The notes under the pieces are model-generated. The model worked only from the letters and a program-made list of their open reading frames with translations, was not told where the DNA came from and did not search any database. Positions 3,388 through 43,991 of a DNA stretch of 43,991 bases are shown here, piece after piece (positions within the stretch are counted from its first letter, which is position 1; every line of letters begins with the position of its first letter). The position numbers and the translations under genes are program-made. Source of the DNA: Rubripirellula obstinata (GTDB lineage Bacteria; Planctomycetota; Planctomycetia; Pirellulales; Pirellulaceae); NCBI RefSeq assembly GCF_001642955.1, contig NZ_LWSK01000044.1, positions 1 to 43,991 of the forward strand, written 5' to 3'.

Positions 3388-3438
3388 TTAGAATTCCCTC
3401 AGCCAGTACACTCGCATTGAGATCGCTTGCACGCCCCC

Positions 3439-3508
3439 GTAGCTGATCCCGCCAGGGTTGAGTCGAGCATCGTCGGATCAACGACTGAACCCTGGCGGGA
3501 TCAGCTAC
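3439..3508. repeat. GTAG-footed palindrome, family B
   Basis: Perfect 21-nt arms (gtagctgatcccgccagggtt at 3439-3459, its complement at 3488-3508) continue for several more bases with one mismatch around a short loop. The same sequence recurs at 7981-8050, 24544-24750 and 26940-27009. Outer ends are GTAG and CTAC. The element fills the gap between the divergent recombinase and galE. Confidence 0.9.
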
Positions 3509-3629
3509 GCTTTCAAACAGTCGCTCTGAAAACGCGGACCCTTCATCAACATCGACGCGATCAATTAAGCTATTCACTCGGCATCAACTGTTGCCGATCA
3601 TTCCAATCACTCCTATTTGACCTTTTGCC

Positions 3630-7769: not shown

Positions 7770-8089
7770 TGGGTGAAACTCTTAAGCAAATGAAAGAAGG
7801 CGATCGCTCTTTTCCAGTTTTCGTTCCAACCATCCAGCGTGTTGCCGAAACCGCAGCGAAAACCAAAGATCGTTCAGCAAAGCGGGTCAATCGTTCCGGT
7901 CAAACAAACCTTAACGGCAACCAGCACCGAATCGAAGAAACCATCTCAAGACAACCTCAGAGGTTGCCAGCAACCTGCCCGTAGCTGATCCCGCCAGGGT
8001 TCAGTCGAGCTTGATCCGATCGTGGACTGAACCCTGGCGGGATCAGCTACGGTCTAGCCCGCTGTTTCATCAGTGTGTGACGATTCCGC
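7770..8089. other. Gap with a family-B palindrome, no gene
   Basis: This 320-base gap between the YjfB-like gene and fabH contains the palindrome at 7981-8050 in its right part. The left part (7770-7980) has short open frames without recognisable domains and I see no gene in it. It presumably includes the promoter of the YjfB-like gene near 7780-7850. Confidence 0.5.
7981..8050. repeat. GTAG-footed palindrome, family B (intact)
   Basis: The cleanest copy of family B: perfect 26-nt arms at 7981-8006 and 8025-8050, beginning gtagctgatcccgccagggt and ending ctac, around an 18-nt loop. It lies 40 bases beyond the fabH stop and could terminate fabH transcription, but it has no T-run. Confidence 0.92.
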
Positions 8090-16755: not shown

Positions 16756-16790
16756 GTAGGCCGTATTTCGCTCCACTCAATACGGCCTAC
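16756..16790. repeat. GTAG-footed hairpin between preA and dihydropyrimidinase
   Basis: Perfect 11-nt arms gtaggccgtat (16756-16766) and atacggcctac (16780-16790) with a 13-nt loop. It has the GTAG ... CTAC ends of the other palindromes. It sits 20 bases after the preA stop and 13 before the dihydropyrimidinase ATG, and might attenuate or stabilise the operon mRNA there. Confidence 0.8.
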
Positions 16791-18200: not shown

Positions 18201-18905
18201 GGTTTAACCACGGATGGCTGTCGCGGGACCACGGATGTTGTGAGTAGGTTTGAGCATAAAAATCCGTGGGTCTGCGAAAGCCATCCGTGGGTATCTCGTT
18301 ACCGCAAATACCGCGGGCAAGTCTCAGTGCGTGACGCAATCTTTGTCGGTGAACTTGGGCATGGGCAGTTGGTGCCGAGGAATCGGGGAGGGTAAGGTTT
18401 AACCACGGATGGCTGTCGCAGACCCACGGATGTTGTGGGTAGGTTTGTGCGTAAAAATCCGTGGGTCTGCGAAAGCCATCCGTGGGTATTTCTGTACCGA
18501 AGACAATGCGGACACGTCTCAGTGCGTGACGGAATCTTTGTCGGCGAACTTGGGCACGGGCAGTTGGTGCCGAGGAATCGCGGCGGGTAAGTTTTAACCA
18601 CGGATGGCTTTCGCAGACCCACGGATGTTGTGGGTAGGTTTGAGCATAAAAATCCGTGGTCCCGCGAAAGCCATCCGTGGGTATCTCTTTACCGCAAATA
18701 ATGCGGACACGTCTCAGTGCGTGACGGAATCTTTGTCGGTGAACTTGGGCATGGGCAGTTGGTGCCGAGGAATCGCGGAGGGTAAGTTTTAACCACGGAT
18801 GGCTTTCGCAGACCCACGGATGTTGTGGGTAGGTTTGAGCATAAAAATCCGTGGTCCCGCGAAAGCCATCCGTGGTTATCTCTTTACCCTCAATTGCCTT
18901 ACACT
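18126..18905. repeat. Tandem array of a 195-bp unit (about four copies)
   Basis: The word gtctcagtgcgtgac recurs at 18126, 18321, 18516 and 18711, each exactly 195 bases apart. Every unit contains the last 25 codons of the dihydropyrimidinase, including its stop, followed by a palindrome (arms of the type ccacggatggctttcgcaga and complement, about 28 nt, with a 25-30-nt loop). The last unit decays after about 18888. Copies differ by scattered substitutions, for example a Gly-to-Ala change in copy 2. The period is divisible by three, so a long reading frame stays open on the opposite strand. Confidence 0.95.
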
Positions 18906-24543: not shown

Positions 24544-24750
24544 GTAGCTGGACCCGCCAGGGTTCAGTCGGTATGGACTGAACCCAACGCCGTGAAGAGT
24601 TTTGGTCCCGGAAAACACGGGTGTTCGTTTAACCGCGTTGGGCATCGCCCCGCGCGTTGTGCTAGCCCGAACGCGCGGGGCGATGCCCACGCGGTTAAAC
24701 GGTTTGGAAACCCTTCGCGGTATGGTCTGAACCCTGGCGGGATCAGCTAC
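24544..24750. repeat. Family-B palindrome interrupted by element A
   Basis: The outer element is family B: gtagctggacccgccagggt at 24544 and the matching right arm ending ctac at 24750. Its right arm is split by an insertion at 24586-24717 bounded by a 17-nt direct repeat (cggtatggactgaaccc at 24569-24585, one mismatch at 24718-24734). Removing the insertion and one repeat copy restores a near-perfect hairpin. The insert is element A, with ends aacgccgtgaagag and cccttcg and inner arms 24627-24658 and 24670-24700. Confidence 0.92.
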
Positions 24751-27551: not shown

Positions 27552-27627
27552 GTAGGCCGTGTGGAGCTCAGCGACACACGGCACCTCTTCGCAAACGCCG
27601 TGTGTCGCGGAGCTCCACACGGCCTAC
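27552..27627. repeat. GTAG-footed palindrome, family C
   Basis: 31-nt arms at 27552-27582 (gtaggccgtgtggagctcag...) and 27597-27627 with a single mismatch and a 14-nt loop. It is located between the convergent rpiB and DUF3471-like genes. A solo right arm of the same family is at 29206-29238. Confidence 0.92.
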
Positions 27628-32737: not shown

Positions 32738-32892
32738 ACCGCGCCAGCCCGAGGCAACGCCTTGAAAGGTTTCTAAACCGTTTAACCGCGTGGGCATCGC
32801 CCCGCGCGTCCACGCGCAACGAAACGCGCGGGGCGATGCCCACGCGGCTAAACGAACTAACACGTGTTTTCTCTTCACCGCGCCAGCCCGAG
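32738..32892. repeat. Element A with 16-nt flanking direct repeats
   Basis: Identical 16-mers accgcgccagcccgag at 32738-32753 and 32877-32892 flank 123 bases. Inside are terminal-type sequences (gcaacgccttgaaagg on the left, ttctcttcacc on the right) and the element A inner arms gtttaaccgcgtgggcatcg (from 32780) and its complement (to about 32854). Confidence 0.88.
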
Positions 32893-38433: not shown

Positions 38434-38749
38434 CTGATCTCGCTAGGTAAGACATTGAACCATTTCCATTCCGCAAAACATGGCATCGATTCGTTTAACC
38501 GCGCGGGCAACGCCCCGCGCGTCGTGCGGGGCGAAAAGTAGCATGGCGGCCCCCCGCCGTGGACTCACCCCGCGCACTGTGGGGCCGCACGACGCGCGGC
38601 CCGAAAAGTAGCATGGCGGCCCCCCGCCGTGGACTCACCCCGCGCACTGTGGGGCCGCACGACGCGCGGGGCGTTGCCCACGCGGTTAAACGATTTAGAA
38701 GTCTAGTCAATGGACCGCCGCTCAATTTCCAGAACCATCCGGTATAGCG
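38434..38749. other. Repeat-filled gap between gltX and cytochrome c gene
   Basis: A 316-base gap. It starts with a decayed family-B left arm (gtagctgatctcgctagg from 38430) and is then taken up by an element A copy with a tandemly repeated loop (38492-38692). About 55 bases remain before the cytochrome start. No gene is supported. Confidence 0.6.
38492..38692. repeat. Element A with a loop containing a 70-bp tandem duplication
   Basis: 38-nt arms at 38492-38529 and 38655-38692 (one mismatch) of the type gtttaaccgcgcgggcaacg. Between them, a 70-bp unit beginning cgaaaagtagcatggcggcc occurs twice in direct orientation, at 38532 and 38602, running into the right arm. The unit includes gggccgcacgacgcg, also seen in the loop of the 40.2-kb copy. 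No clear flanking direct repeat was found for this copy. Confidence 0.88.
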
Positions 38750-40093: not shown

Positions 40094-40097
40094 CAAC

Positions 40098-40360
40098 GTA
40101 GGCCGGAACAAGACGCGTTTCGCGGCGCAGTTCCGGCAGTCCCCCCAACGCCATGAAGAGTTTTTAAACTGTTTAACCGCGTTGGGCATCGCCCCGCGCG
40201 TCCGGGGCCGCACGACGCGGAACGAAACTCGCGGGGCGATGCCCAACGTGGCTAAACAAAACAATGTTTTTTGGCTGGATCAAATCTCTTCACGGCGTTG
40301 CAGTCCGCCCGCACCGTCATGCCGGAACTGCGCCGCGAAACGCGTCTTGTTCCGGCCTAC
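40098..40360. repeat. Three-level nested palindrome (GTAG element containing element A)
   Basis: Outer arms are perfect over 41 nt (40098-40138 and 40320-40360; gtaggccggaacaagacg... and ...cttgttccggcctac). Inside are terminal inverted repeats caacgccatgaagag (40146-40160) and ctcttcacggcgttg (40286-40300), and inside those the element A arms (40171-40200 and 40230-40257). The inserted element is flanked by gcagtcccccc (40136-40146) and gcagtccgccc (40300-40310). Confidence 0.93.
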
Positions 40361-40433
40361 GGTTTGACTCGGTGATTTGGTACCTTCATGGGCAATTGAT
40401 AACGTTTTCCCACGATCAAAACACGGGCTCTCG

Positions 40434-43549: not shown

Positions 43550-43991
43550 TTCAAAACACGATGTGATCAACTTTGTTAAGCCGCGCGAGCATCGCCCAAT
43601 GGCGATTGCTTCAGCCCCGGATGGGGCGGCAGCACTTTGCCGTGGGCCTTGGCCCACGGAGTCAAACGCAGAGAAAACCAAAGCCCCGGCAGGGGCGGCA
43701 GCGAGCACACGTCGGCGCTATTACGCCTCTGGGGCAAATGATGTGTTTCAGTCGCCTACCGGTAGCCAATCGCCACCAGCATAGAATTTTATCCAACGCC
43801 GTAAAGAGTTTTGGTCCCGGAAAATGCGCACCGCCGTAACTCGCTATGGCTCGCTACGGCCTACTTTTTGGTTCCCAGACGCACCCTGACCTGATGAAAA
43901 TCATTGCAACGCAGCAAATTGGGCAAGCTGCACCATGGCAGACAACACGAACTGCAGCGCTGTGAAGCATTGTGGCAACGGCACATTTCCA
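43550..43991. other. Terminal gap with repeat fragments
   Basis: No gene is supported in these 442 bases. Present are: two copies of gccccgg-(3 nt)-ggggcggcagc (43614-43632 and 43683-43701); a hairpin ccgtgggcc/ggcccacgg (43640-43659); a left-end fragment of element A (aacgccgtaaagagttttgg from about 43795); and a GTAG-type hairpin (43833-43864) matching that at 4610. The last 57 bases are open from an ATG at 43935, but too short to judge. Confidence 0.5.

Follow-up and report, generated by a model that had tools for sequence, protein, structure and literature searches.

A three-level palindrome upstream of glnS in Rubripirellula obstinata, very probably a REPIN that received a MITE with IS4-like ends in its loop

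The arrangement of REPs as inverted pairs (REPINs) together with RAYT genes has been described in PMC3116915, and GTAG REPs with RAYT genes were already reported for R. baltica in PMC3733652, where REPs are hypothesised to serve termination and mRNA stabilisation. On the side of the insertion sequences, the IS4Sa subgroup is tabulated in PMC2266710 with ends CA------T, a duplication of 8–10 bp and a size of 1150–1750 bp, and ISRm22 is assigned to it there. Insertion of IS elements into REPs is likewise documented (PMC1525189). Here we analysed a window of 43,991 nt, the whole stretch of DNA from contig NZ_LWSK01000044.1 of Rubripirellula obstinata, in which both kinds of element meet upstream of glnS. 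We consider it very likely that a REPIN was present first, that an IS4-like DDE transposase then put a 155-bp MITE into its loop with a 9-bp duplication, and that this MITE bears a core which is an independent repeat.

The original prediction had described 40098–40360 as a palindrome with three nested stem levels, and its coordinates proved correct to within one base. The outer arms are perfect, as predicted (complementarity 100% by sequence comparison), but measure 42 rather than 41 nt. Inside them lie the expected 15-nt terminal inverted repeats, paired at 14 of 15 positions, and these enclose a third pair of arms, which had been estimated at about 28–30 nt and measure 32 nt with 91% complementarity. 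The features of this locus and of a second nested site are:

40097–40138, forward strand: left outer arm, a GTAG-tagged REP of the REP1 family with its GTAG foot at 40098, pairing perfectly with 40320–40361
40320–40361, reverse strand: right outer arm, an inverted copy of the same REP that completes the head-out doublet (REPIN)
40137–40145, no strand: target duplication of 9 bp, left copy CAGTCCCCC, which starts on the last base of the left REP; length derived from 39 copies
40301–40309, no strand: target duplication of 9 bp, right copy CAGTCCGCC, matching the left copy at 8 of 9 positions; length derived from 39 copies
40146–40300, forward strand: MITE A (155 bp), with a 142-bp consensus from an alignment of 37 copies; ends CAACGCC...GGCGTTG
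40146–40160, forward strand: left terminal inverted repeat of MITE A, CAACGCCATGAAGAG; the family consensus starts with CAACGCCGTGAAG, in common with the IS at G000:C266
40286–40300, reverse strand: right terminal inverted repeat of MITE A, CTCTTCACGGCGTTG, from the paired-end search and the MITE alignment
40170–40258, no strand: core hairpin (third level) with arms 40170–40201 and 40227–40258 and a mini-palindrome GGGC-N3-GCCC in each arm
24544–24750, no strand: REP2 doublet with an A match inside (24585–24722), the second nested case in the window

Folded as DNA, 40098–40360 reaches −113.8 kcal/mol, compared to a mean of −52.7 for shuffled sequences (sd 3.8, n = 200; z −16.2). None of the 200 shuffles is as stable, and the fold displays all three stem levels. 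The stack starts 4 nt past the stop codon of the gene that precedes glnS. Stability and position alike would suit a stack that is maintained between the two genes as a hairpin for termination or RNA processing, its mobile origin being secondary, and so would the roles hypothesised for REPs in PMC3733652. However, the outer stem is not followed by a T-run, and the stack is missing from all 20 congeneric gaps, so that we regard such a maintained function as unlikely.

These gaps come from a search of 40 relatives with 1.5 kb around the locus, which matched in 34; 29 loci were read, 20 of them from congeners with both neighbours recognisable. Exact words for REP1, the core and the MITE ends are absent anywhere in the 20 congeneric glnS loci, and a lone GTAGGCCG occurs in one of the nine remaining loci. 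The gap upstream of glnS measures 83–167 nt in the four best-matching congeners versus 340 nt here, or 77 nt without the 263-nt stack. An orthologous gap with the outer palindrome only, which the original prediction had proposed to look for, was not found among these 20, none of which holds any level; nor does any of them carry the three levels as a unit, the pattern named there as speaking against nesting.

At the outer level, each arm is its own hairpin unit of the form GTAG-GCCGGAAC-variable-GTTCCGGC. The REP pattern GTAGGCCGGAAC-N(4-30)-GTTCCGGC has 323 matches in the genome (165 forward, 158 reverse) and the reversed control has none, i.e., a GTAG tag stands beside a short palindrome at high copy number. 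Most of these matches belong to inverted doublets whose loops measure near 24 nt. The exact subtype of the outer arms is confined to the glnS-upstream locus, with one other REP within 3 mismatches. In a sample of 61 pieces (1.22 Mb) we counted 42 head-out REP1 doublets, 41 of them without MITE A. The commonest span of these insert-free doublets is 88 nt (21 of 41), equivalent to a 24-nt loop; besides loops of 14–25 nt there are loops of 34, 46, 54, 90, 97 and 104 nt, and one pair lies 1061 nt apart. REP1 thus forms inverted pairs at a preferred distance. The doublet upstream of glnS spans 263 nt because the MITE is inserted in it; subtracting the MITE and one duplication leaves the REPs 19 nt apart, a loop in the normal REPIN range. 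Since 41 of the 42 doublets of the same family lack an insert, they can stand in for the missing ortholog with the outer palindrome only. Other REP-like palindromes that begin with or contain GTAG are found in the window at 3438–3509, 7979–8052, 16756–16790 and 27552–27627.

A profile search revealed 11 Y1_Tnp (PF01797) matches in the genome, and three of them (L064, L067 and L070) have REP1 within the fetched 1.5 kb, placing RAYT genes beside the same REP. On one flank of the 184-aa Y1 gene of L070 stand five REP1 doublets and on the opposite flank a single one, while L064 (230 aa) and L067 (a shortened 93-aa ORF with the same start) each have one REP1 upstream. L068, a 184-aa paralogue of L070, carries doublets of a different GTAG family (GTAGGCCGTAGCGAGC...) on both sides. 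The flanks of the other seven Y1_Tnp matches contain none of the scanned REP families. The motifs HWH and YIHWNPRKHGL are present in the ORFs of both L070 and L068. These paralogous RAYTs, at G000:C306 (L070) and G000:C33 (L068), each with its own GTAG REP family, form a natural pair for RAYT-REP specificity.

From its sequence we identify the outer level as a REPIN consisting of two inverted GTAG-tagged REPs. With the REPIN/BIME systems of the GTAG superfamily and their RAYTs, as described in PMC3116915 and PMC3733652, it has in common the GTAG foot, the inverted doublet and the preferred loop length, as well as the high copy number and the position of REPs next to Y1 transposase genes. Unlike known REPINs, the loop upstream of glnS has grown from 19 to 183 nt through the MITE, and the REP1 pattern is lineage-specific: within the genus it has 323 matches in the source genome, five in G013 and none in 20 other genomes.

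The middle level occurs without the outer one. A 301-nt query spanning the locus gave 87 matches, with 40 scored out of 622 first-look candidates, and elsewhere they are confined to positions 52–231 of the query, which correspond to the inner element without the outer arms. Paired A ends delimit 42 elements, 39 of which measure 131–178 bp from AACGCC to GGCGTT; the remaining three measure 232, 557 and 2130 bp. A is thus short and non-coding with terminal inverted repeats. Further A or core matches, some of them damaged, lie in the window at 32755–32881, 38457–38704, 123–168 and 43794–43828. The long mutually inverted repeats at 18208–18878, 83–170 nt in length and built on CCACGGATGGCT..., are apparently no kin of these elements. 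In the contigs C1, C13, C24, C46, C112 and C264 of the source genome, an A end lies within the first 51–162 bases, and the assembly therefore seems to break at A elements.

The flanks of the 39 copies agree at 75% in an 11-bp register versus 44% (sd 2) in shuffled pairs, and at 23–41% for all other lengths from 4 to 19. Within the 11-mer, positions 2–10 lie some 4 to 7 sd above the shuffled pairs, whereas positions 1 and 11 stay at the shuffled level over the 39 copies (23 vs 22.5 and 26 vs 27.2). Because the excess is limited to positions 2–10, A runs from a C to a G and duplicates 9 bp, and this fixed length is a property of the family; agreement is variable, 12 of the 39 copies matching at no more than 8 of 9–11 positions and some of them poorly. 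An 11-bp duplication with ends AACGCC...GGCGTT was therefore dropped, also because 13 of 14 IS copies of the congener G003 and two MAG copies show 9 bp. The duplications tend towards the context GGGN5CCC across the A family, and in the 9-mer of the window only the CC half of the GG-N5-CC preference fits. IS231-type elements have the target GGG(N)5CCC. Such a target, suggested by the 11-mer, was rejected since the ends and the 9-bp duplication fit IS4Sa better.

A probable partner for A resides in the same genome. One of its seven DDE_Tnp_1 matches lies inside an element with MITE A ends (G000:C266), as judged by comparison, within 2 mismatches of the MITE ends, of the 1.5-kb flanks of all seven genes. 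This IS measures 1591 bp from AACGCC to GGCGTT, or 1593 bp counting C and G, and both of its ends begin with CAACGCCGTGAAG, as does the A consensus; MITE and IS share their ends. Its 484-aa product P0001 has a DDE_Tnp_1 domain and, read by eye, the signature spacing Y-2-R-3-E-6-K as defined in PMC2266710. The best NCBIfam model, transpos_IS4_1 (IS4 family), scores 109.5 bits, 5.5 below the cut-off of 115, which is a curation threshold and no defining feature of the IS4 family; we therefore name the protein IS4-like. The flanks of the resident copy at C266 are without a matching duplication. Its homologue on C244 has just a left-end-like stretch with 4 mismatches, and C280 holds a 3'-end fragment having a right-end-like stretch (3 mismatches) and then core-like sequence.

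At E 1e-30, two of the 22 genomes searched in the genus hold relatives of the IS, namely the source genome and G003. The 14 copies in G003, with an identity of 39–43%, start with CAACGCCGTTAAGG, and 13 of them have identical 9-mers beside both ends CAACGCCGT...ACGGCGTTG, L179 being the exception. Twelve of these 9-mers are CCCCTCACC or its complement, and that of L187 is GGTGCGGGG. In many of the copies (L172–L187), CCCCTCACC on either strand is followed by CCAACCCTCTC, apparently a repeat itself, and some copies follow one another directly, separated by just 9 bp. Among 27 loci from GTDB genomes, we examined the five planctomycete ones (L232–L236). Two MAG loci, L233 and L234, have both ends and duplications, CCTGAAAGG and CCTGCCGGG, that match at 9 of 9 positions; L232 has the ends but no matching duplication, L236 ends before the right duplication, and L235 has no end pair.

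Against the table in PMC2266710, the ends CA------T and the 9-bp duplication agree with IS4Sa, as do DDE_Tnp_1, the YREK spacing and the length of 1593 bp. P0001 is likened to this subgroup by ends, size and duplication, and it falls under one NCBIfam cut-off. Unlike IS4Sa elements, A is non-coding with a hairpin interior. The middle level is, by these sequence features, a 155-bp MITE with IS4-like ends. It shares with bacterial MITEs a length of 100–200 bp, ends as in a resident IS, a target duplication and many copies; unlike them, its interior is a hairpin that is also found without IS ends, in tandem arrays. ISRm22, assigned to IS4Sa in PMC2266710, similarly uses REPs as landing sites, often within REP clusters (PMC1525189). 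In contrast to ISRm22, the element here is a MITE rather than an IS and is placed in the loop between two REPs; ISRm22 duplicates 6 bp (PMC1525189) versus 9 bp for A.

Nesting of A in REPs recurs. REP1-A junctions have three matches genome-wide at two loci, two of the matches being the glnS-upstream locus itself, while REP2-A junctions have 28 matches (control 0), which include at least one locus twice, once from either side. A recurring process, as originally proposed, is thus borne out. For the site near 24.5 kb the prediction was right about the combination of A with a REP palindrome but not about the outer family, which is REP2. In the sample, A or core matter lies inside 1 of 42 REP1 and 4 of 30 REP2 doublets, and inside 0 of 1 and 0 of 40 doublets of other GTAG families. 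To judge preference, 90 A loci were compared with random noncoding points (300 draws, within 60 nt), noncoding being crudely approximated as no ORF of 150 aa or more. REP2 lies near 14 loci versus a mean of 3.39 and a maximum of 11, which supports an enrichment. REP1 (6 of 90 vs mean 2.94, maximum 8) and the GTAGGCCGT group (9 of 90 vs mean 4.37, maximum 12) give no support for a preference over the 300 draws. Flanking of A on both sides was seen 3 times for REP2 versus 0.56 (maximum 3), once for REP1 versus 1.12 and once for GTAGGCCGT versus 1.59. A shift control gave larger A-REP contrasts, without correction for A lying in noncoding DNA. Within noncoding DNA, nesting in REP1 is no commoner than chance, and nesting in REP2 is commoner.

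The REP2 loops also bear on whether the three levels travel together as a single composite, e.g., an extended REPIN that is mobilised by a RAYT and takes the MITE along. The junction TCGGGTACAGCT|CAACG recurs in these loops, as a travelling composite would leave it, and the outer arms upstream of glnS show no difference in their 42 nt, as would those of a REPIN copied not long ago. Yet among 11 REP2-loop junctions that were read and start with TCGGG, one A end is found in seven and the opposite end in four. Both orientations of A at one target are expected of independent insertions, not of a unit, and point to composites that arose repeatedly, which disfavours unit movement for the REP2 composites. 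Moreover, REP1-A junctions exist at just two loci genome-wide and every level also occurs alone: searched separately, as had been suggested, all arms turn up independently elsewhere. We therefore hold movement as a unit to be very improbable.

Even less probable is the reverse order, with REPs settling on both sides of a MITE that was already there, or growth of the outer palindrome through a local inverted duplication. In their favour is the fact that no polymorphic ortholog settles the order, all 20 congeneric gaps being empty of every level. However, the duplicated 9 bp lie in the loop and overlap the left REP arm at its final base, which argues that the REP end was present when the MITE arrived, and arms that are members of a dispersed family speak against local duplication.

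In the favoured sequence of events, with the REPIN first and the MITE second, a RAYT (HUH Y1) acting on single-stranded DNA would have placed a REPIN with a loop of about 19 nt behind the stop codon. An IS4-like DDE transposase would then have put the 155-bp MITE into this loop, a step supported by the duplication and by the resident partner. The MITE carries the core hairpin between its IS-type ends. The assignment of the two events to RAYT and IS4-like transposase follows from the genes and ends described above, and their proposed order from the duplicated loop sequence. The prediction that one palindrome had inserted into the loop of another agrees with the target duplication, the separate existence of each level and the recurrence elsewhere.

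Among the three levels, the core hairpin is the most novel part. Merging A and core matches in the sample yielded 90 loci, 83 of them away from piece edges; 39 of these 83 have both MITE ends, 30 have one, and in 14 none was detected. Three or more of the 14 are complete cores (L154 5793–5881, L130 14346–14442 and 17656–17745), and others are fragments. In G003, cores form tandem arrays with a period of 98 nt and 13.5 copies (L188) or 105 nt and 12.8 copies (L190), with periods of up to 119 nt elsewhere, and among the matches listed of 689, the MITE consensus is represented in this genome by its core portion only. Many cores are found in 2 of the 22 genomes of the genus. The arrays of this cross-shaped hairpin unit occupy many sites of the single-contig congener genome (G003:C1; L188–L191, L212–L229). 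An Rfam search with four sources returned 12 sub-threshold matches (11 miRNA families, 1 sRNA) and none at the gathering score.

Of 118 units in G003, 90 have mirrored mini-hairpins, GCCC-N3-GGGC versus GGGC-N3-GCCC, and 8 units of one array are of GGCC type. All four local pairs are retained in both arms (12-nt arm centres) in 98 of the 118, while arm-to-arm pairing is down to 4–10 of 12. In the source genome, the local pairs are retained in 22 of 23 units, both arms are alike and arm-to-arm pairing is 11–12 of 12. This suggests that the local hairpins, not the long hairpin, are kept in the G003 arrays. However, array units are kin by duplication and the mirrored type (90, in either orientation) may stem from a single change, and hence the pattern is no proof of selection.

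The mini-palindrome GGGC-N3-GCCC of the core arms is compatible with the preferred target GGGN5CCC of the MITE family. The core arms contain GGGCGATGCCC, which with its complement accounts for 125 of the 248 exact GGGN5CCC sites in the sample, and MITE A thus carries its own family's preferred target. A ends lie within core arms in 15 of 218 cases, these ends being loosely defined (up to 3 mismatches allowed) and including chance matches. Together, these observations suggest that A would multiply its own landing sites, nesting in itself and in REPINs, with the core as an independent element of the genus that was captured between IS4-type ends; we put this forward tentatively, at somewhat less than an even chance.

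Integron attC sites have boxes of the form RYYYAAC/GTTRRRY and an unpaired central spacer. The core ends GTTTAAC...GTTAAAC fit these boxes and an integron integrase scores above the curated cut-off in 12 of 22 genus genomes, including the source (G000:C57:74713-75660, 427.8 bits), but there is next to no chance that the core is an attC site, a candidate we rejected because its stem lacks an unpaired spacer, a box pair with exact complementarity is absent from the five integrase loci scanned (one stopping early at a contig end), and many cores occur in only 2 of the 22 genomes.

REPINs, IS4-type MITEs and insertion of IS elements into REPs are known kinds, and the original expectation of an undescribed architecture does not extend to these components. 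It holds for the particular families and for the MITE-in-REPIN stack, which look undescribed: a literature search, reaching few subscription papers, returned no MITE-in-REPIN composite and no report of A as a planctomycete MITE.

The three-level palindrome would represent two transposition systems of unrelated chemistry, single-strand HUH and DDE, one inside the product of the other, with the core adding a third repeat. The G003 arrays offer a case for reading from sequence whether selection acts on local hairpins or on one long hairpin. Stacks of this kind place highly stable hairpins in the gaps between genes, are found where contigs of this assembly end, and would record the order of insertion.
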